Positions 54,363-63,878 of a DNA stretch of 64,000 bases are shown here, one piece after another (position 1 is the first letter of the stretch; every line of letters starts with the position of its first letter). Origin of the DNA: Bythopirellula polymerisocia. Its GTDB lineage: Bacteria; Planctomycetota; Planctomycetia; Pirellulales; Lacipirellulaceae. Position numbers and translations under genes: made by a program. The DNA lies in NCBI RefSeq assembly GCF_007860015.1, contig NZ_SJPS01000007.1:62001-126000 (forward strand), written 5' to 3'. A model generated the notes under the pieces. The model was given only the letters and a program-made list of their open reading frames with translations. It was not told where the DNA came from and did no database searches.

Positions 54363-56801
54363 ATGGATGCCACTGCGACGGATCGCAATCCGATTTCACG
54401 CACAGCTACTGCGTATCGCCCGAGCATTTCGCTCGTACTGCCGGCGTATAATGAAGCCGACACGATCCAGCAGGCGATGAGCGAAGCAGTCGCCGCTCTC
54501 TCGGAGCTGACCGACAATTTTGAAGTGCTGGTCGTCGACGACGGGAGCACCGATGTCACGGCAGAACTCGTAAAACAAGCGGCTGAAAAGTCGCCACAGA
54601 TTCGTTTGCTCAAGCAGCCGAGAAATCTGGGATATGGCGCGGCTTTGCGCCGTGGTTTCAGTGAGGCTTCCAAAAATCTGGTCGGATTCACTGACGCAGA
54701 TTGCCAGTTCGACTTAACAGAGCTCAATCGCCTGGTGATGCTCTCTCGGGATTACCAGATCGTGACTGGCTATCGTATCGACCGGCAGGACCCTTGGCTG
54801 AGGCGAATGTATTCAGCTGGCTACAACGTACTGGTCCGAAATCTGCTGGGAACGCGCGTCCGTGATTGCGACTGCGCCCTCAAATTATTTCATCGCGAGA
54901 TACTCGCCAAACTCCCGATCACCACCGACGGTTTTTTGATTAACGGTGAGATGCTCTCTCGGGCGCGGCAACTTAGTCTGTCGATTGTAGAAGTCGGAGT
55001 ATCGCATCGACCTCGTGCAGGAGGAGAAAGCAAGGTCTCGGTTTTCGAGATACCAGTCGTGCTTGCCTCACTCACACGGCATTGGTGGAACAAAGTGATG
55101 TTCCCCGTGATTGCTGGTGATCGATCAAGCGAATTAATGACCTGGTCGCCGCGCAAGATTGCAGCGATGACACTCCTCCTGACAGCAATCGCCGCGATCC
55201 TCTTGCTCACGAACCTGCGCTACGCGCTCATCGAACCCGACGAGACTCGTTATGCCCAGATTGCTTTGGAGATGGTGCATACTGGGGATTGGCTCGTACC
55301 TCGACTTCAGGGCGAGCCGTACCTGGATAAGCCGCCACTCTTGTATTGGCTCACCGCCGCGAGTTATACGCTTTTCGGTGAGAATCAAATGAGTGCGCGC
55401 TTGCCGTGCACTTTATCTGCCCTACTGACAGTGTTTGCGAGCTTCTTACTCGGCCGACGGCTCGTTGGAGATCGTGCAGCCTGGATTGGTGCTCTTTTGC
55501 TCAGCCTGACCGGGGGTTTTATACTTGCCGGGCGGTTTCTGCTCATGGATAGCGTCCTTTCGTTGTTCACGACTGTGGGGTTGCTATGTGCGCTACTGGC
55601 TATCAGCAATCCCCGCCGCGCATTTGCGTGGTGGCTGGCGACCGGCGTCGCCTGCGGGTTAGGCGTAATGACCAAGGGCCCCGTTGCCCCGGTGCTGTGT
55701 TTTCCGCCAATTGTCATGCTGGCCTGGCTTACTAAGAACTATGCAGCATTTCGCTTACGAAATGTACTTGCCGTGTTGGTGCCTACGGTGCTGATCGCCG
55801 CTCCTTGGTTTTGGCAGGTGGCGGAGAGCCAGTCGGAATTTGTCGGCTATTTTTTTTGGAAACACAACTTTCAGCGTTTCGTCCATGGCTTGAATCACGT
55901 GCAGCCCTGGTGGTTTTATCTTCCCGTGATGGCGCTGGGGATGCTCCCAGGGACGTTTCTTGCCCCGGCGATGGCAGTCTATCTGGGACGCAAGAGTGAT
56001 GATGCCTGTCAGAAGCGGACGCAAGAACTGGGCGCGCTGCTGCTCTCGAGTGCCTGGATAGTGGGATTCTTCTCGCTCTCCAGCTGCAAGCTTCCGACCT
56101 ACATCCTGCCGGCGATTCCCTTGTTGGCGTTGGCCTTGGGGAAAATGCTAGGGGATTGCAGGTGGTCCACGATTCCAGGGCAAGTGAATGCGTTGGTCGA
56201 GTTTTATTCGACGCGAGCTGCCTGGCAAGTCGTTGCAGGCTCAACGATCATGGCATTCGCATTGCTGATCGCCCATCTAGTGATTACGCCGTCGGCAATT
56301 TGGCTGGCAATCTTGTTTGGATTCGTCCCAATCGCTGGAAGTGCGCTGTTGTTGAGCAGGCAACTCCAATCACACCACCGTTTGCTGTCTGCTTCTGTGG
56401 GGATGTGCTTGATTGTTACGCTGTTTGGGTTCGGTCGGGTTGTCCCTGAGTTTGCCAACTGGCGGTCGGTATCGCGATCCGCCGCCAGACTACAAGCAGA
56501 GCTTGGTGGATCGACCCCGATCGTGTTCTTCGGCCGACCTCCGGAAGCGACTTCGTTTGCAATCAACTCTGAAGTCATAAAGTTCTCGCCAGACCAGTCG
56601 AAAGAATTCAAAAAGTTCGTCTCCGAACATCGAGAGGCAGTAGTAGTGGCCAATCGCTCGGCATTGGGAGTCCTCAAGGATGTCTGTTCCGGTGAGATCG
56701 ACCTCGCAGGACCCCAGGCACGAGGTCGGGTGTTCGTGGCGAAACGGGGTAACGAGGCCCTGGCAGCGCGGCCGAAACGTGACGCAGCACGTCGGGAGTA
56801 A
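54363..56801 (+). CDS. Fused GT2 glycosyltransferase / ArnT-PMT-like membrane glycosyltransferase
   Basis: 812 residues. The first 240 or so form a GT2 domain like dolichol- or undecaprenyl-phosphate mannosyl/glucosyl transferase: LVLPAYNEADTIQQAM (about 22), VLVVDDGSTDVT (about 58), GFTDADCQFDL (DxD) and RDCDCALKLFHRE. From about 275 a multi-helix membrane domain resembles ArnT and protein mannosyltransferases: LIEPDETRYAQIALEM, EPYLDKPPLLYWL, SARLPCTLSALL. One chain could thus charge a polyprenyl phosphate with sugar and transfer it outside. Donor and acceptor cannot be read. Confidence 0.88.
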   Translation: MDATATDRNPISRTATAYRPSISLVLPAYNEADTIQQAMSEAVAALSELTDNFEVLVVDDGSTDVTAELVKQAAEKSPQIRLLKQPRNLGYGAALRRGFSEASKNLVGFTDADCQFDLTELNRLVMLSRDYQIVTGYRIDRQDPWLRRMYSAGYNVLVRNLLGTRVRDCDCALKLFHREILAKLPITTDGFLINGEMLSRARQLSLSIVEVGVSHRPRAGGESKVSVFEIPVVLASLTRHWWNKVMFPVIAGDRSSELMTWSPRKIAAMTLLLTAIAAILLLTNLRYALIEPDETRYAQIALEMVHTGDWLVPRLQGEPYLDKPPLLYWLTAASYTLFGENQMSARLPCTLSALLTVFASFLLGRRLVGDRAAWIGALLLSLTGGFILAGRFLLMDSVLSLFTTVGLLCALLAISNPRRAFAWWLATGVACGLGVMTKGPVAPVLCFPPIVMLAWLTKNYAAFRLRNVLAVLVPTVLIAAPWFWQVAESQSEFVGYFFWKHNFQRFVHGLNHVQPWWFYLPVMALGMLPGTFLAPAMAVYLGRKSDDACQKRTQELGALLLSSAWIVGFFSLSSCKLPTYILPAIPLLALALGKMLGDCRWSTIPGQVNALVEFYSTRAAWQVVAGSTIMAFALLIAHLVITPSAIWLAILFGFVPIAGSALLLSRQLQSHHRLLSASVGMCLIVTLFGFGRVVPEFANWRSVSRSAARLQAELGGSTPIVFFGRPPEATSFAINSEVIKFSPDQSKEFKKFVSEHREAVVVANRSALGVLKDVCSGEIDLAGPQARGRVFVAKRGNEALAARPKRDAARRE

Positions 56802-57108: not shown

Positions 57109-58551
57109 ATGCGCGATTATGTTCTGATTTATATCAATGGTGTCCGTCACCAGATCCGTGGCCAGCAGGCGCGGCTTTCACTCTCCAACTTCATACGTCG
57201 CGAGCTGGGGCAGATTGGCACGAAGATCGTTTGCAGCGAAGGAGACTGCGGGGCATGCTCAGTCCTGGTAGGCCGGGCTTGTGAGGACGGTATCCGTTAT
57301 CAGGCGATTGATTCTTGTATCGCATTTCTGTTTCAGCTCGACTCGACACACATTGTTACGGTTGAAGGAATTTCCAAAGCCGGGCAAACCAACGGTGTGC
57401 AGCAAGCGCTCATCGATTGCCATGGTTCACAGTGTGGCTTCTGTACGCCGGGTTTTGCCATGGCAATGACTGCCATGCAGGAAAATGGCTGTGGCAAAGT
57501 TGTTGATGAACTAAGGGCCGGACTCACTGGCAACCTGTGTCGCTGCACAGGGTATGTGTCGATTCTCGAAGCGGGGCTTACGACGGAGATTGCCGAAGGG
57601 GAGCGGATGGACTCGATGTATCCGCCGGATACGATGTTGCAGGATTTTGCAACGCACGCGGACGATAATATGGCGTTGGTGGAGGACAACGAGGAATCAG
57701 CTTCTCGCACCTATTGCCCCGCAACATTGAGGAGTGCATTGGAAGTGCTGCAAGATTGGCCCCAGGCGATGATTGTGGCCGGGGCCACAGATATTGGCGT
57801 CCGCGTGAATAAAGGGCAGACTCTGCCAGAGACGATTCTGGATTTGAATCGTGTCAAGGAATTGGAACAAGCAGAATTAGTTGCCGGAAAGCTTGTGATG
57901 GGGGCGCGAGTTTCTTGGACTTCCGTAGAGTCGCTTAGTCGCGCATCGATTCCAGAATTCTATCGCGTGCTGAAGGTTTTCGGTGCGCCGCAGATTCGCA
58001 ACATGGGCACCGTGGGAGGCAACGTGATCAACGCTTCACCGATTGCCGACTCGTTGCCGTTTTATTTTGTTATGGATGCTGAGTTGGAATTGCAATCATC
58101 CAGCGGCAGCCGCAAGGTGAGCATCAATGATTTTTACCAGGGATACAAGAAGTTTGATCTTCGACAAGGCGAGCTGCTTACGAGAGTGACGGTGCCGCTG
58201 CCGAAAGAGAGGGAACTGCTGCGACTATTCAAAGTCTCACGACGGTTGGATCTGGATATTTCGTCATTCACCGCGGCAATTCGAATGCGACTCGATGGTG
58301 ACACGATCACCGAGGCGGCTCTGGCTTTCGGGGCGGTTGGTCCGACCGTCCTGCGGGCTCGCAATACCGAAGCCTATCTTGTGGGCCGTGAATTAACAGA
58401 GGCTACGATGCTCGCGGCGGGCGAATTGGCCGTAGCGGAAGTAACACCGATCAGTGACGTGCGAGGTAGCGAGGACTATCGATTGCAGCTTACGCGTAAT
58501 GTGTTTGTTAAGTTTTACCTGGAGCATCAACCGGATGCGGTGTTGGTGTAG
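57109..58551 (+). CDS. xdhA: Xanthine dehydrogenase small subunit (2Fe-2S and FAD)
   Basis: 480 residues. The first domain binds a plant-type 2Fe-2S cluster through Cys42, 47, 50 and 70 (CSEGDCGACSVLVG); the second binds another through Cys109, 112, 144 and 146 (CGFCTPGF, CRCTGY). The FAD domain follows (VAGATDIGVRVN, FGAPQIRNMGTVGGNVINAS). It passes electrons from the molybdenum site of the large subunit, encoded next, to NAD. The large subunit, XdhC and a convergent YgfK-like protein place it in purine breakdown. Related molybdenum hydroxylases share this layout, so the substrate is inferred. Confidence 0.9.
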   Translation: MRDYVLIYINGVRHQIRGQQARLSLSNFIRRELGQIGTKIVCSEGDCGACSVLVGRACEDGIRYQAIDSCIAFLFQLDSTHIVTVEGISKAGQTNGVQQALIDCHGSQCGFCTPGFAMAMTAMQENGCGKVVDELRAGLTGNLCRCTGYVSILEAGLTTEIAEGERMDSMYPPDTMLQDFATHADDNMALVEDNEESASRTYCPATLRSALEVLQDWPQAMIVAGATDIGVRVNKGQTLPETILDLNRVKELEQAELVAGKLVMGARVSWTSVESLSRASIPEFYRVLKVFGAPQIRNMGTVGGNVINASPIADSLPFYFVMDAELELQSSSGSRKVSINDFYQGYKKFDLRQGELLTRVTVPLPKERELLRLFKVSRRLDLDISSFTAAIRMRLDGDTITEAALAFGAVGPTVLRARNTEAYLVGRELTEATMLAAGELAVAEVTPISDVRGSEDYRLQLTRNVFVKFYLEHQPDAVLV

Positions 58552-58618
58552 AGTCTAGAGCCAGAAACCAGATTTTGACTCTTGGCTCTGGATTCTCAGC
58601 TAAATAGGACTATCAGTC
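58552..58618. repeat. Short spacer with complementary words
   Basis: GTCTAGAGCCAGAAACCAG is opposed by CTCTTGGCTCTGGATTCTC, an imperfect inverted repeat in the 67-base gap between the two xanthine dehydrogenase genes. Confidence 0.45.
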
Positions 58619-60973
58619 ATGACTTCCGTCGGAAAACCATTGCCCCATGATTCGGCTCGAGGGCACGTCACCGGTAGCGCCTTGTTTATCGATGATATGC
58701 CTGCCCAGGTCGGGGAATTGCACGTCGGATTCGTCGGTAGTCCGGTTGCCTGTGGTGAGATCATGCGAATCGATGTGGAAGCCGCGTTGAAAACGCCTGG
58801 CGTGGTGGCTTGTTACACAGCTGAAGACGTGGCGGGGCACAATGTTTTTGGCCTGATCGTGGCCGATGATCCGTTCTTGGCCCAAGAGGAAGTGATGTAC
58901 GTCGGGCAACCGGTAGTGGTGGTGGCTGCCGAGAACCCAAAGGCATTGGAGCTTGGTCGTCGGGCGGTGGTGATTGAATGCCGTGAGCAAACGCCTGTGC
59001 TAACCATCGAACAGGCGATTCAAGCGAATCGCTATCTGGGTCCCGTGCGAAAAATCGCACGCGGCCGAGTCGATGAGAATCTCGCCTCCGCGCCTCATCG
59101 AATTGCGGGGACATTCAAAAGCGGCGGGCAGGAGCAGTTTTACCTTGAATCCCAAGCCGCCCTCGCTTATCCGGGGGAGCAGGGGCAGATCGTCGTGCAT
59201 TCTTCCACACAGAATACGACAGAGATTCAAGCGGTTGTCGCCGAAGTTTTAGGCCTGGGGCAGCACGAGGTGATTTGCATCTGCAAACGGATGGGGGGTG
59301 CATTTGGTGGCAAGGAAACCCAGGCAGCGATTCCCGCGATCATGGCGGCGTTAGTCGCGTCGAAAACAGGCCGCGCGGCTCGCGTGATCTACAACAAAGA
59401 CGACGACATGTGTGTCACCGGCAAGCGGCACGAATACTTTACGCGTTGGGATTGTGGATTCGACAATGCAGGGCATTTGTTGGCACTGCGATGTGAGTAT
59501 TTTTCCAATGGTGGGGCTACGACCGATCTTTCTCCCTCGGTGATGGAACGCACTCTGCTACACGGCGACAACGCCTACTTCCTGCCGCATGTGGAGTTCA
59601 CGGGTAAGGTCTGTTTTACGAACCTGCCGCCCAATACCGCATTTCGCGGTTTTGGCGGTCCGCAGGGGATGCTTGTCATCGAGAATGTGTTGGAGACGAT
59701 TGCCGAGAAGCTGGGGCTCGATGCTTTGCAAGTTCGCAGGGCCAATGTCTACGGCGTCGGCACCCGCAATGTGACTCCCTACGGTCAGGTGGTCGACAAA
59801 AACCATTTGCCCGAAATTTTTGAAACGCTGGCCGCTGATTCGGATTACGAGCGGCGGCGAGAAGAGATTGCTCAGTTCAATGCCAAGTCACGTTTGCAGG
59901 TGCGTGGACTCGCACTGACTGGGATGAAGTTTGGCATCTCGTTCACAACCAAGTTCCTAAATCAGGGAAACGCGCTTGTGAATGTATACACAGACGGCAC
60001 GATCCAGGTCTCGACTGGGGCGACCGAGATGGGGCAGGGGGTCAACGTAAAGATTCGACAACTGGTGGCCGACGAGTTCGCGATCGATCCCCGTCGCGTC
60101 TTGATGATGGCCACCAGCACTGAGAAGAACAACAATACTTCGCCCACTGCCGCCTCGGCCGGCACCGACCTCAACGGGGCCGCCGCCGTGGTGGCCTGTC
60201 AGGAAATCAAGACGCGATTGCGGTCATTTGCCGCCGAGCATCTGGCCGACAGCGAGTCGGGGTTGGTCGCTTCGCCGGAGCACATCTGCTTTGCCGAAGG
60301 GACTGTGCATGACGACCGGCGCCCGCAGGTTCGGATTCCGTTCGAGCAACTGTGCGAAGATGCCCGGCGGGATCGGGTCGATCTCGGTTCTCGCGGGTTC
60401 TTTGCCACACCGGGAATCGACTTCAACCGCGAGACGGGGCGCGGCACACCGTTTTTCTATTTCACCCAAGGGGCCGCCGTAGCCGAGGTGGTCATCGATC
60501 GCTTCACCGGCGAGATGCGCGTGCTACGCGTTGACCTGCTGATCGACATCGGCAAGTCCATCAACCCGGGTGTGGATCGAGGTCAGATCATCGGCGGCTT
60601 CGTGCAGGGAATGGGCTGGGTCACCAACGAATGTCTCACTTATAATGACAAAGGTGAATTGCTTTCGCACTCGCCGACGACTTACAAGATCCCTGCTGTG
60701 ACCGACATCCCCCCTGAGTTCAACGTGCGGATGTTCCCCAACCATGACAACACCCAAAACATTGGCAGCAGCAAGGCCGTCGGCGAACCACCACTGATGT
60801 TGGCATTGAGTGTGTGGGCAGCGGCCCGCAATGCGATTTCCTACGTGAAACCGGGGGCCGAGATTGATTTGAAGTCGCCCGCCACAGGAGAAGAAATCCT
60901 CCGCGTGATAACAGCACTCCAACAAGATACAGAACCAACTCAGCTTCCAGGGATTGTAATCCCTGGGCGTTAG
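58619..60973 (+). CDS. xdhB: Xanthine dehydrogenase molybdopterin-binding subunit
   Basis: 784 residues. The a/b hammerhead starts GKPLPHDSARGHVTGSALFI. Molybdopterin-binding segments include CICKRMGGAFGGKETQA, NTAFRGFGGPQGMLVIE, STGATEMGQGVNVKIRQ and SPTAASAGTDLNG. The catalytic Glu is residue 723 in SKAVGEPPLMLALSVW. The enzyme hydroxylates hypoxanthine/xanthine to urate. Its last codons (PGIVIPGR and stop) coincide with a copy of the CCCTGGG palindrome, so the natural C-terminus has been rewritten by the repeat. xdhC follows 40 bases later. Confidence 0.93.
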   Translation: MTSVGKPLPHDSARGHVTGSALFIDDMPAQVGELHVGFVGSPVACGEIMRIDVEAALKTPGVVACYTAEDVAGHNVFGLIVADDPFLAQEEVMYVGQPVVVVAAENPKALELGRRAVVIECREQTPVLTIEQAIQANRYLGPVRKIARGRVDENLASAPHRIAGTFKSGGQEQFYLESQAALAYPGEQGQIVVHSSTQNTTEIQAVVAEVLGLGQHEVICICKRMGGAFGGKETQAAIPAIMAALVASKTGRAARVIYNKDDDMCVTGKRHEYFTRWDCGFDNAGHLLALRCEYFSNGGATTDLSPSVMERTLLHGDNAYFLPHVEFTGKVCFTNLPPNTAFRGFGGPQGMLVIENVLETIAEKLGLDALQVRRANVYGVGTRNVTPYGQVVDKNHLPEIFETLAADSDYERRREEIAQFNAKSRLQVRGLALTGMKFGISFTTKFLNQGNALVNVYTDGTIQVSTGATEMGQGVNVKIRQLVADEFAIDPRRVLMMATSTEKNNNTSPTAASAGTDLNGAAAVVACQEIKTRLRSFAAEHLADSESGLVASPEHICFAEGTVHDDRRPQVRIPFEQLCEDARRDRVDLGSRGFFATPGIDFNRETGRGTPFFYFTQGAAVAEVVIDRFTGEMRVLRVDLLIDIGKSINPGVDRGQIIGGFVQGMGWVTNECLTYNDKGELLSHSPTTYKIPAVTDIPPEFNVRMFPNHDNTQNIGSSKAVGEPPLMLALSVWAAARNAISYVKPGAEIDLKSPATGEEILRVITALQQDTEPTQLPGIVIPGR
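60947..60968. repeat. Palindromic repeat, CCCTGGG family, copy 4 (3' end of xdhB)
   Basis: CCAGGGATTGTAATCCCTGG plus GC. It is in frame in the last codons of xdhB and encodes PGIVIPG, followed directly by Arg and the stop. Confidence 0.75.
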
Positions 60974-61013
60974 CCCCAATAACATTCCGAGTTCCGCACT
61001 CTGCATTCAAAAT

Positions 61014-61817
61014 ATGTCTTCCCCTCAAGGATTTGTCGAACGACTTGCGGAACTTGCTCGCGCCGAAGCTCCTTTTGTCAGCGTAACCATGGTCGAAGCC
61101 ATTGGCAGCACCCCACAGGACACTGGCAGCAAGTTGCTGGTTACCACCGAAGGGCTGTCGTCGGGGACCGTCGGCGGTGGCAAGGTCGAGCATAAGGCGA
61201 TCCAGCATGCTCAGGCGATGCTTGCCGACTCGTCCGGCCAGGCACCTGTGCATGAACTCGTGGAGTGGAACCTGCAGCGCGACGTGGGGATGACCTGCGG
61301 CGGGGTGGTAAAGCTTTTTTTCGAAACCTACAACCACAGCGATTGGCAGGTGGTAATCTTCGGCGCCGGCCACGTCGCTGGTGCCGTCGCGAATTGCCTG
61401 GGGCAAATCAATTGCCACACCCGCTGCATCGATTCCCGCAGTGAATGGCTAGACAAGATCGCCGACCGCCAGCGGCTCACCAAGGTTCACGCCGACGACC
61501 TTCCGGCCCAGGTCGCTTCCCTGCCGAACGACGCCTTCGTCCTCTCGATCACGATGGGCCACGGCACCGACCGCCCAGTACTGGCCGAGATTTTCCGCCA
61601 GGGCCGCAAGTTCCCCTACCTGGGCGTCATCGGCAGCCGCGCCAAGCGCGGCGTGCTGGTGCGCGAACTAATCGCCGATGGCATCCCACGCGAACGAGCC
61701 GAGGCATTCCACTGCCCAATTGGGTTGCCATTGGGATCGAACGAGCCTGGCGAAATTGCGATCAGCGTGGTGGCGGAGTTGATTCAGGAGCGAGATAAGT
61801 GGCGGGGTGGGGTTTAG
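61014..61817 (+). CDS. xdhC: Xanthine dehydrogenase maturation factor XdhC
   Basis: 267 residues. It binds and protects the molybdenum cofactor, helping its sulfuration before insertion into the large subunit. Family features are VTMVEAIGSTPQDTGSKLLV at the N-terminus, GGGKVEHKAIQHAQ, the CGG in MTCGGVVKLFFETY, the Rossmann-like VVIFGAGHVAGAVANCL, and LGVIGSRAKRGVLVREL near the end. It completes the xdhABC operon. Confidence 0.93.
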   Translation: MSSPQGFVERLAELARAEAPFVSVTMVEAIGSTPQDTGSKLLVTTEGLSSGTVGGGKVEHKAIQHAQAMLADSSGQAPVHELVEWNLQRDVGMTCGGVVKLFFETYNHSDWQVVIFGAGHVAGAVANCLGQINCHTRCIDSRSEWLDKIADRQRLTKVHADDLPAQVASLPNDAFVLSITMGHGTDRPVLAEIFRQGRKFPYLGVIGSRAKRGVLVRELIADGIPRERAEAFHCPIGLPLGSNEPGEIAISVVAELIQERDKWRGGV

Positions 61818-61829
61818 ATGGGGTGAAAG

Positions 61830-61851
61830 CCGGGGGATTGCAATCCCTCGG
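61830..61851. repeat. Palindromic repeat, CCCTGGG family, copy 5
   Basis: CCGGGGGATTGCAATCCCTC followed by GG. It lies 12 bases after the xdhC stop and 17 from the convergent YgfK-like stop. Confidence 0.6.
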
Positions 61852-61868
61852 ATTTGATGGAGGTAGTC

Positions 61869-63878
61869 TCACACTTGCTCGGCTACCAGCGGTGTATTCA
61901 CCGCGTGGATTCTTGCGTCGGAGGTAATGCCCTTGAGAAGGGTTACCAACGCGTGGAAGCGGCCCATGTCGATGGTGTGGGATTCGCTTGGGTGGAGACT
62001 ATTCTCAGCGAGGGTGAAATTGGCACGCGAAGACGCAAGGGTGATCGTGCCATCGTGGAAGCAGTATTCGCCTTTGGCGGATAGTGAGAGATGACACAAA
62101 TCCCCGGCAATGCGTGCATTAAGACATATCTCCCCGTTTTCGTTTTCTAGTTGAAAACCATCATGCGGAGAACCCGCTTCAAATGCTTCGCGGCTGCCGA
62201 AGAAGCTGGGTTTCATCAAATAGGGGCCGTCGTACTCGGGGCAGAAGGTGTCGCAGTTGCCGCAGTGGTTGCAATAATCGGCAAAGTTGGCAATTTGCTC
62301 TGCCTTCTCAACACGGAAGGGTTTCTCATCGCCGACTTCGACGAGTGTGCCGTCCGGCTGTACCTCCAGATCGCGGTAACTAATGTCGACAGCCTCGACA
62401 GCATAAGTAAAGTTAGCATCGTTGGGGCAGACAGGGATGCACTTGTCGCAGGTAATGCAGTCGAACGTGGTCAGGTGCGAATCGATCTTCTTGGGTATCG
62501 ATCGATTATGCTCAGCATAATACCGATTATCTGCTTGCGTCTTCGCGACAATCGTTTCCATATTCAAAAAACCAGCATGGAGTGGATCACCTCCCGCGGC
62601 AGCCCGATTGCCGCAACAATCCAAGAGATAGTCATCAATGGTCGTAGCACCACACGCATCCATCGCCTTGCGGAGATCCTGGAAATACGCCGGCAATCGT
62701 CCGTAGCCACCGACCCTCAATAAATCGGTGCAGGTGGTGACGGGGACAAACCCGCAGGCGATTGCGTTGGCCGCGTTCTTGCGGTCGATGCCTGCTGAGA
62801 AGGAGATCGGCATCACGTGGCCCACCTGCTTACGAAATTCGTGAGCCAGCGTGAGCGTGATCACATGCAACGGCAGGCCCGAGAGATACATCACCTTCTC
62901 CTTCTCGGGGAAGAATTCGCGGTGGTTGTTGACCTCGAGAGTGTTGGAAAACTTGGCACCGAAACCCATGTTGCGCTCCGTCGCAAGTTTCGCCAGTCGA
63001 CCACACATAGCGATCGATTCGTCAAACATCAAACCGCTGGAGTAGGCGTGCGGGTTGACGGTGATTTCTGTGTAACCCATCACGTCATAGAGTAACGCTT
63101 CGAGCCGTCCTTTCCCCAGCATCGGCGGGTTCATTTTTACGATCACATCGGTGCCGATCTCAGTGAGAAGAAACTCGCAGATGCGTTCGATCTCGTCAGC
63201 GGGGCAGCCATGGAAAGTAGAAAGTGTGATGCTGCGGCTCAAGGCGGTGGGATAGTCGAGGTCTCGCAGAGCGCGCAGCCGATGCGGCAATTGATCCCGG
63301 AGGCGGTTGACACTCTCGGTGGCATCCATCATGCCGCGGATGAATCCGACTACCTTGTCGGTCTGAATGCCTGCCAGGTCGTAGCCGACCGACATGTCGA
63401 AGACGGTCTCGCCCAAAGTACCGGCCATGTCGGTCTCACCGCAGGGATTGCCGAATTCCTGAGGCGCATTTCGCAGCATATGGATCAGCATGGCCCCTTG
63501 AACATATTGATCGAGTGACTCATGGACCTTGAGTTCCTGCGACCATTCGATGTTGTAGCCAACGTTGGTGGCATCGATGCAGGGTCGGGCAATTTCTAGC
63601 GCGTCGTTGATCTGCACGGTCTTTAGTTCCATGATCCGCGACCCGGCGAGCCACGAGAGCACCAGGTTCTGCGCCATCTGGGTTTGCGGACCCGAGGCGG
63701 GACCTAGCGGGTTGCCTGCCAATTGGCCATGGAAGCGGACCGTGAGATCGGTGCTGTCATTCGCATCGGGCACGTACCATTTGCGGCGAGGCAGATCAAA
63801 CATCGACTCCCGGTTCGCATACTCAAGCCGGATGCGGTCGACGAGTTCGACGAACGGTGTGCAGTAGAGATCGACCAT
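61869..63878 (-). CDS. YgfK-like oxidoreductase lacking the flavin/NAD(P) domain
   Basis: 669 residues. The N-terminal 450 resemble the PreA-like (FMN-barrel) part of E. coli YgfK: PFVELVDRIRLEYANRESMF, NPLGPASGPQTQMAQNLVLS, RIMELKTVQINDALEIARPC, STFHGCPADEIERICEF and TTCTDLLRVGGYGRL. Two 4Fe-4S motifs follow, CITCDKCIPVCPNDAN (about 479) and CNHCGNCDTFCPEYDGP (about 536), then the C-terminal strand region GFQLENENGEICLN. E. coli YgfK has an extra 350-residue glutamate-synthase-like NAD(P)/FAD domain between the barrel and the ferredoxin part; it is missing here. YgfK genes cluster with xanthine dehydrogenase-like genes, as here. Electrons must come from a separate partner. Confidence 0.82.
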   Translation of the reverse strand: MVDLYCTPFVELVDRIRLEYANRESMFDLPRRKWYVPDANDSTDLTVRFHGQLAGNPLGPASGPQTQMAQNLVLSWLAGSRIMELKTVQINDALEIARPCIDATNVGYNIEWSQELKVHESLDQYVQGAMLIHMLRNAPQEFGNPCGETDMAGTLGETVFDMSVGYDLAGIQTDKVVGFIRGMMDATESVNRLRDQLPHRLRALRDLDYPTALSRSITLSTFHGCPADEIERICEFLLTEIGTDVIVKMNPPMLGKGRLEALLYDVMGYTEITVNPHAYSSGLMFDESIAMCGRLAKLATERNMGFGAKFSNTLEVNNHREFFPEKEKVMYLSGLPLHVITLTLAHEFRKQVGHVMPISFSAGIDRKNAANAIACGFVPVTTCTDLLRVGGYGRLPAYFQDLRKAMDACGATTIDDYLLDCCGNRAAAGGDPLHAGFLNMETIVAKTQADNRYYAEHNRSIPKKIDSHLTTFDCITCDKCIPVCPNDANFTYAVEAVDISYRDLEVQPDGTLVEVGDEKPFRVEKAEQIANFADYCNHCGNCDTFCPEYDGPYLMKPSFFGSREAFEAGSPHDGFQLENENGEICLNARIAGDLCHLSLSAKGEYCFHDGTITLASSRANFTLAENSLHPSESHTIDMGRFHALVTLLKGITSDARIHAVNTPLVAEQV

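Follow-up and report, generated by a model that had tools for sequence, protein, structure and literature searches.

A short YgfK in the reductive urate-degradation gene set of Bythopirellula polymerisocia: a proposed ferredoxin-dependent yanthine reductase

The end of a 64,000-nucleotide stretch of the planctomycete Bythopirellula polymerisocia (contig NZ_SJPS01000007.1, positions 62,001 to 126,000; this whole stretch is called the window) encodes a 669-amino-acid relative of Escherichia coli YgfK (61869..63878, minus strand), in which the GltD-like NAD(P)H/FAD module of the E. coli protein is missing. The locus raises the question of which pathway such a short YgfK serves and from which donor it takes its electrons. 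Based on the TIGR03315 match, hhalign comparison, an AlphaFold2 model and the gene neighborhood, the protein very probably belongs to the reductive urate-degradation pathway, and it is probably the ferredoxin-dependent yanthine (2,8-dioxopurine) reductase of that gene set. The reductive urate pathway is known; the widespread YgfK branch without the NAD(P)H module is new. No literature description of a short YgfK was found in listings of open-licence papers.

Domain content and predicted fold of the short YgfK

The 669-amino-acid protein matched positions 7-397 of the YgfK model TIGR03315, with a whole-protein E value of 8.7e-118. The six-frame search gave a second match at 911-989, and the gap between 7-397 and 911-989 was without a match. 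The score of 394.2 bits is below the curated cut-off of 835.3. The initial annotation had described a YgfK relative with the barrel and two ferredoxin-type clusters. This was verified by the TIGR03315 match, by the profile comparison with E. coli YgfK (E 2e-102) and by two [4Fe-4S] motifs, CITCDKCIPVCP at residue 474 and CNHCGNCDTFCP at residue 536.

Four parts follow each other on the minus strand. The FMN-type barrel with the N-terminal part covers residues 1-403 (62670..63878), as delimited by conservation and structure alignment. A linker of about 70 residues (404-473; 62460..62669) occupies the site of the GltD-like NAD(P)H/FAD module in E. coli YgfK and forms two helices in the AlphaFold2 model. 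The two [4Fe-4S] motifs lie within residues 474-547 (62238..62459), and a strand-rich C-terminal domain covers residues 548-669 (61872..62237), as indicated by the alignment with the E. coli YgfK C-terminus and by the model. In E. coli YgfK, the GltD-type cysteines are at 455-511, the Rossmann motifs at 553 and 681, and the ferredoxin motifs start from 898, whereas the barrel of the short YgfK ends near 395 and is followed by the first ferredoxin motif at 474. The initial annotation was thus right that an NAD(P)/FAD domain is absent, and its estimate of roughly 350 residues was too small: about 450 residues are missing when the GltD-type cysteines are included, and 363 is the net length difference. 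The short YgfK is a YgfK relative that retains the barrel and two clusters and lacks the GltD-like module.

The barrel residues 220-226, STFHGCP, are invariant in the alignment columns, and the cysteines of both [4Fe-4S] motifs are invariant in the alignment of short YgfK relatives. The mean pLDDT is 94.7 for the AlphaFold2 model, which was built from the window protein together with 58 relatives. The best structural match of the barrel was pig dihydropyrimidine dehydrogenase (DPD) 1gt8 (VIA-align Z 27.7, rmsd 2.6, 291 residues), tied with dihydroorotate dehydrogenases at a Z of about 27. The fold suggests that the barrel may bind FMN. The ferredoxin-type part gave a weak profile match to pyruvate:ferredoxin oxidoreductase 1b0p (E 1.2e-5). 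The short YgfK had no match to PF01180 (DHO_dh) at E 1e-3, and single-sequence phmmer found no relatives in the PDB at E 0.01.

A truncation or frameshift artefact was ruled out by an 86% identical copy of 668 amino acids in the relative G585 and by 22 short copies in a sample of the phylum. A promoter and terminator scan gave no signal exceeding that of shuffled sequences.

Gene set, synteny and distribution

The decisive genomic context of the short YgfK lay beyond the window edge. The ygfK start is 122 bp from the window end, and a divergent PALP1-PALP2-SsnA run begins 29 bp beyond it. Within about 11 kb past the edge, a ThrC-like PALP gene (PALP1), a CysK-like PALP gene (PALP2), SsnA and carbamate kinase come first, and YgeW, YgeY, a 901-amino-acid XdhD-type protein and a MocA-type protein follow. 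The XdhD-type protein consists of [2Fe-2S] and molybdopterin parts and scores 946 bits against TIGR03311, above the cut-off; no FAD subunit lies beside its gene. SsnA scores 361.8 bits against TIGR03314, below the cut-off of 455.5. Relatives of XdhD, SsnA, YgeW, YgeY and carbamate kinase, the set expected of the reductive urate pathway, therefore accompany this YgfK.

Three relatives within the genus and family, G585, G590 and G604, share the cluster order. The PALP pair is kept on a short contig in G592, and YgeY, carbamate kinase and XdhD are kept in the more distant G629. Only 6 of 59 near relatives, the window genome counted, carry short ygfK, which indicates a patchy spread. The ThrC-like and CysK-like PALP-fold genes (C7:126029-128894; L009:14030-16895) stand at the place of YgeX in E. 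coli. The CysK-like PALP2 was found in 32 of 80 short-YgfK loci and also, with 68% identity, in a long-YgfK cluster (G563); it is therefore probably a general pathway gene.

Distribution was analyzed in two samples. The phylum sample comprised 392 genomes drawn by the tool, with a YgfK barrel threshold of E 1e-30, and its counts are genomes, not independent events. The YgfK barrel was found in 28 of them, 22 with the short and 6 with the long form. SsnA was present in 24/28 YgfK genomes versus 8/364 others (p 1.5e-27), and XdhD above the model cut-off in 18/28 versus 4/364 (p 1.7e-20). The second sample, the named loci, comprised the best 80 of 579 relatives for a short-form query, a ranking that favors short forms. 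GltD-type motifs were absent from all 80, a count biased because the query was short-form, so that the share of short forms is not measured by it. Both ferredoxin motifs were detected by pattern in 76 of the 80, and one only in L055, L056, L059 and L102, the last of which is cut by a contig end. By record title, the short YgfK occurs in about 15 phyla, including Planctomycetota, Sumerlaeota, Myxococcota, Acidobacteriota, Pseudomonadota, Gemmatimonadota, Actinomycetota and Chloroflexota, among others. SsnA or XdhD was found in 53 of the 80 loci; where at least 5 kb was available on both sides (n=47), 38 had SsnA or XdhD and 32 had both. A FAD-domain open reading frame (ORF) was absent from the stretch in 33 of the 46 loci with XdhD; among the remaining 13, it adjoins XdhD in 5.

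The barrel phylogeny separates the two forms. A quick tree of 109 rows separated long and short forms by one change (support 84). A more careful tree of 52 rows, with 8 long forms and 44 of 101 short forms, placed all 8 long forms on one side (support 94/84). This tree has no outgroup, and whether the GltD module was gained or lost is not readable from the trees. A separate observation concerns an Acidimicrobiia contig, in which a second, shorter YgfK-type ORF (L118:3911-4987) lies near the first, on the other strand.

Proposed role and electron donor

According to the published account of Li et al. (2025), E. coli XdhD reduces urate to yanthine, YgfK and SsnA convert yanthine to ureidomethyl-hydantoin with NAD(P)H, and HyuA, YgeW, YgeY and YgeX carry out the remaining steps to pyruvate (PMC12507026). 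As described there, UacX takes the place of YgfK in C. difficile and its FAD domain is absent; the authors suggest ferredoxin, and reduced methyl viologen was the donor in the UacX assay (PMC12507026). The initial annotation had suggested a new branch of purine catabolism. The link to purines is retained, and the claim of novelty is not, in view of the 2025 description of the reductive urate pathway in that account.

By analogy, XdhABC would oxidize xanthine to urate, and the XdhD of the cluster would reduce urate to yanthine. The short YgfK would then reduce yanthine at its FMN-type barrel, and SsnA would open the ring after this reduction. The route to pyruvate may be completed by a hydantoinase whose gene lies elsewhere, by YgeW together with carbamate kinase, by YgeY and by the PALP-fold lyases. 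The conversion of xanthine to urate by XdhABC and of urate to yanthine by XdhD would together be redox-neutral. The YgfK step would cost two electrons, and the oxidation of pyruvate to acetyl-CoA would give two back as reduced ferredoxin. No uricase was found in the own genome in a search limited to family PF01014.

In the absence of the NAD(P)H/FAD module, electrons must enter the short YgfK through its two C-terminal [4Fe-4S] clusters. Ferredoxin is the probable donor by analogy with PydAc, a dihydropyrimidine dehydrogenase without the FAD domain that is reported to use reduced ferredoxin (PMC7332683). This precedent, together with the neighbor and genome evidence, makes the general pool of reduced ferredoxin the best guess for the source. 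The own genome has three POR_N genes (2-oxoacid:ferredoxin oxidoreductase). Pfam scanning covered 133 of 207 selected unassigned neighbor ORFs from 52 of the 80 loci; BPD_transp_2 ABC permeases were found in 10 and Bmp proteins (PnrA-like ABC binding proteins) in 2, and no redox family occurred in at least two members. Clustering of the unassigned neighbor ORFs, with crude gene calling and one cluster that is likely an antisense artefact, gave transporters, a nitrilase-type family and an allantoate-amidohydrolase-type family, and no electron carrier. In print, the donor of the urate-pathway reductases has been named as an open question, for XdhAC (PMC12990295).

Two loci carry electron-transfer genes in the same stretch. 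In Propionivibrio dicarboxylicus DSM 5885 (L092:10001-21795), which can be cultivated, three genes beside the short YgfK form a candidate electron supply chain: a ferredoxin-like ORF, a GltD-PyrK fusion that scores above the PRK12779 cut-off, and a PFOR-like gene that falls far short of its own. An RnfC/PrdC-like electron-transfer gene (L050:1731-3059) is found in a stretch with relatives of YgeW, carbamate kinase and the short YgfK.

The donor could also be NAD(P)H, if the short YgfK were one half of a two-subunit enzyme of the PreA kind whose GltD/PreT-like subunit is encoded elsewhere in the genome. E. coli PreT and PreA are adjacent and split in this way, and the GltD-PyrK fusion of P. dicarboxylicus adjoins the short YgfK. 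The initial annotation had advised searching for a separate GltD-like gene. The two best candidates of the own genome adjoin GltB and, on another contig, a NuoE-NuoF fusion; the latter fits the two-subunit arrangement and the former speaks against it. A GltD-like gene was found near the short YgfK in only 1 of the 80 loci and not in the window cluster, which makes a split subunit encoded close by improbable; the two-subunit enzyme as a whole is considered rather unlikely. The NuoE-NuoF fusion and the adjoining GltD-like [2Fe-2S] protein (L012:4539-8974, contig C2) presumably resemble an electron-bifurcating transhydrogenase or an NADH:ferredoxin module.

Direct supply from a neighboring molybdenum hydroxylase, XdhAB or XdhD, would be a different solution. 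In the window, the xdhA-type small subunit (57109..58551, 480 amino acids, with [2Fe-2S] and FAD domains), the xdhB-type molybdopterin subunit (58619..60973, 784 amino acids) and the maturation factor XdhC (61014..61817, 267 amino acids) are encoded on the plus strand. The products of xdhB and xdhC score above the cut-offs (921.2 bits against TIGR02965 and 167.2 bits against TIGR02964), and that of xdhA slightly below (444.8 bits against TIGR02963, cut-off 467). That ygfK faces these genes, as initially annotated, was confirmed for all four ORFs: the arrangement is convergent, with 51 bp from the xdhC stop to the ygfK stop. The convergence on ygfK, which is shared with G585, would suit a direct transfer. 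However, XdhA-type and XdhB-type genes are near in only 6 and 5 of the 80 loci, respectively, and G590 has neither in the 6.4 kb that follow ygfK. The adjacency of a classical xanthine dehydrogenase to the short YgfK is not conserved. In addition, the window XdhA has an FAD domain of its own, and the XdhD of the pathway is itself described as a reductase needing electrons (PMC12507026). Of the two sources named in the initial annotation, another protein therefore stands, as the module is absent, and xanthine dehydrogenase itself is highly improbable. Elsewhere in the window, an 812-amino-acid protein (54363-56801) joins an N-terminal glycosyltransferase-2 type part to an ArnT-like part.

In all lineages or only some of them, the short form could instead act on another substrate, be it a pyrimidine, a hydantoin or a different purine. 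Three loci (L062, L068 and L071) pair the short YgfK with a hydantoinase-type gene and have no SsnA or XdhD in the stretch; L068 carries a urate oxidase gene in addition. On the other hand, the whole urate set is syntenic in the window lineage, and the conserved barrel positions are common to the short YgfK and E. coli YgfK; another substrate is thus judged improbable. The urate oxidase gene of the betaproteobacterial L068 (5901-7202, PF06181) is about 3 kb from the hydantoinase-short YgfK pair. Either oxidative and reductive urate genes stand side by side there, or YgfK has a different role in that locus.

Several observations weigh against the assignment as a ferredoxin-dependent yanthine reductase. 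HyuA hydantoinase and YgeX-type diaminopropionate lyase were not found in the window's cluster, and the best hydantoinase candidate (34% identity) is encoded near a PreA-like gene on a different contig, C4. Nine of the 47 wide named loci have neither SsnA nor XdhD. SsnA or XdhD is nearby in only 4 of 14 short-YgfK stretches of the phylum sample; the link there is therefore by genome and not by cluster. Three genomes of family f37 with a long YgfK have an XdhD without an FAD domain nearby, and 5 short-YgfK loci have an FAD subunit adjoining XdhD. POR_N is present in 28/28 YgfK genomes and also in 328/364 others; being near-universal in the phylum, it permits ferredoxin and does not single it out. 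Finally, four COX1-family genes are present in the host, where an oxygen-sensitive ferredoxin enzyme would not be expected. Two propositions were rejected on the same counts: a simple co-loss of the FAD modules in XdhD and YgfK, and POR_N as a discriminating ferredoxin source.

The ferredoxin-dependent yanthine reductase remains the preferred assignment, and it can be extended, tentatively, to a wider scenario that we consider possible but somewhat doubtful. One change in domain content would have divided YgfK into two clades, one driven by NADH and the other by ferredoxin. The latter would run the reductive urate pathway in broad environmental bacteria, oxygen-respiring ones included, with pyruvate oxidation by ferredoxin-linked enzymes repaying the dearomatization of urate, and the published survey would miss much of the clade. 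We take TIGR03314 and TIGR03315 to be the InterPro entries IPR017700 and IPR017701 of that survey. The pathway survey is described as built on these two entries (PMC12507026). It may have missed members of the window type, which score under those models; scores below the family-model cut-offs would let annotation and surveys overlook the short YgfK branch. The pathway was described for gut and other anaerobes, and the short branch spans about 15 phyla and a COX1-bearing host.

Comparison with known enzymes

The closest counterpart is E. coli YgfK, with 39% identity in the barrel and a profile E value of 2e-102. The two proteins share the C-terminal [4Fe-4S] motifs, the C-terminal domain and the gene neighbors SsnA, XdhD, YgeW and YgeY. 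The difference is the GltD-like NAD(P)H/FAD module, which the short YgfK does not have.

The PreA comparison is more distant. E. coli PreA gives a weak profile match to the short YgfK (E 2.6e-5, probability 75%) and is paired with PreT. The PreA-like protein of the B. polymerisocia genome matches PF01180 at 6.7e-37, unlike the short YgfK. Its gene on contig C4 lies close to a hydantoinase gene (L179:10472-14011), no PreT-like gene was seen next to it, and its product has no ferredoxin-type tail; it is possibly another ring reductase without an NADH subunit. Pig DPD 1gt8 has 16% identity to the short YgfK and differs by its own NADPH/FAD domain.

With UacX and PydAc, the short YgfK shares a layout of barrel and ferredoxin-type clusters without the FAD domain, with FMN predicted from the fold. 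UacX of C. difficile, likened here by its published description, is an FMN enzyme without an FAD domain in the same pathway, for which ferredoxin was suggested (PMC12507026); it is a PF01180 DHO_dh protein, whereas the short YgfK gave no PF01180 match at E 1e-3. PydAc also lacks the FAD domain and is reported to receive ferredoxin electrons (PMC7332683), and its fold class is presumably shared. It differs by its substrate, uracil, and by its occurrence in strict anaerobes, and it is set beside the short YgfK by description, not by sequence. If the proposed role is correct, the short YgfK would join PydAc and UacX as a flavoenzyme that reduces a ring with electrons from an external donor of low potential and not from NAD(P)H.

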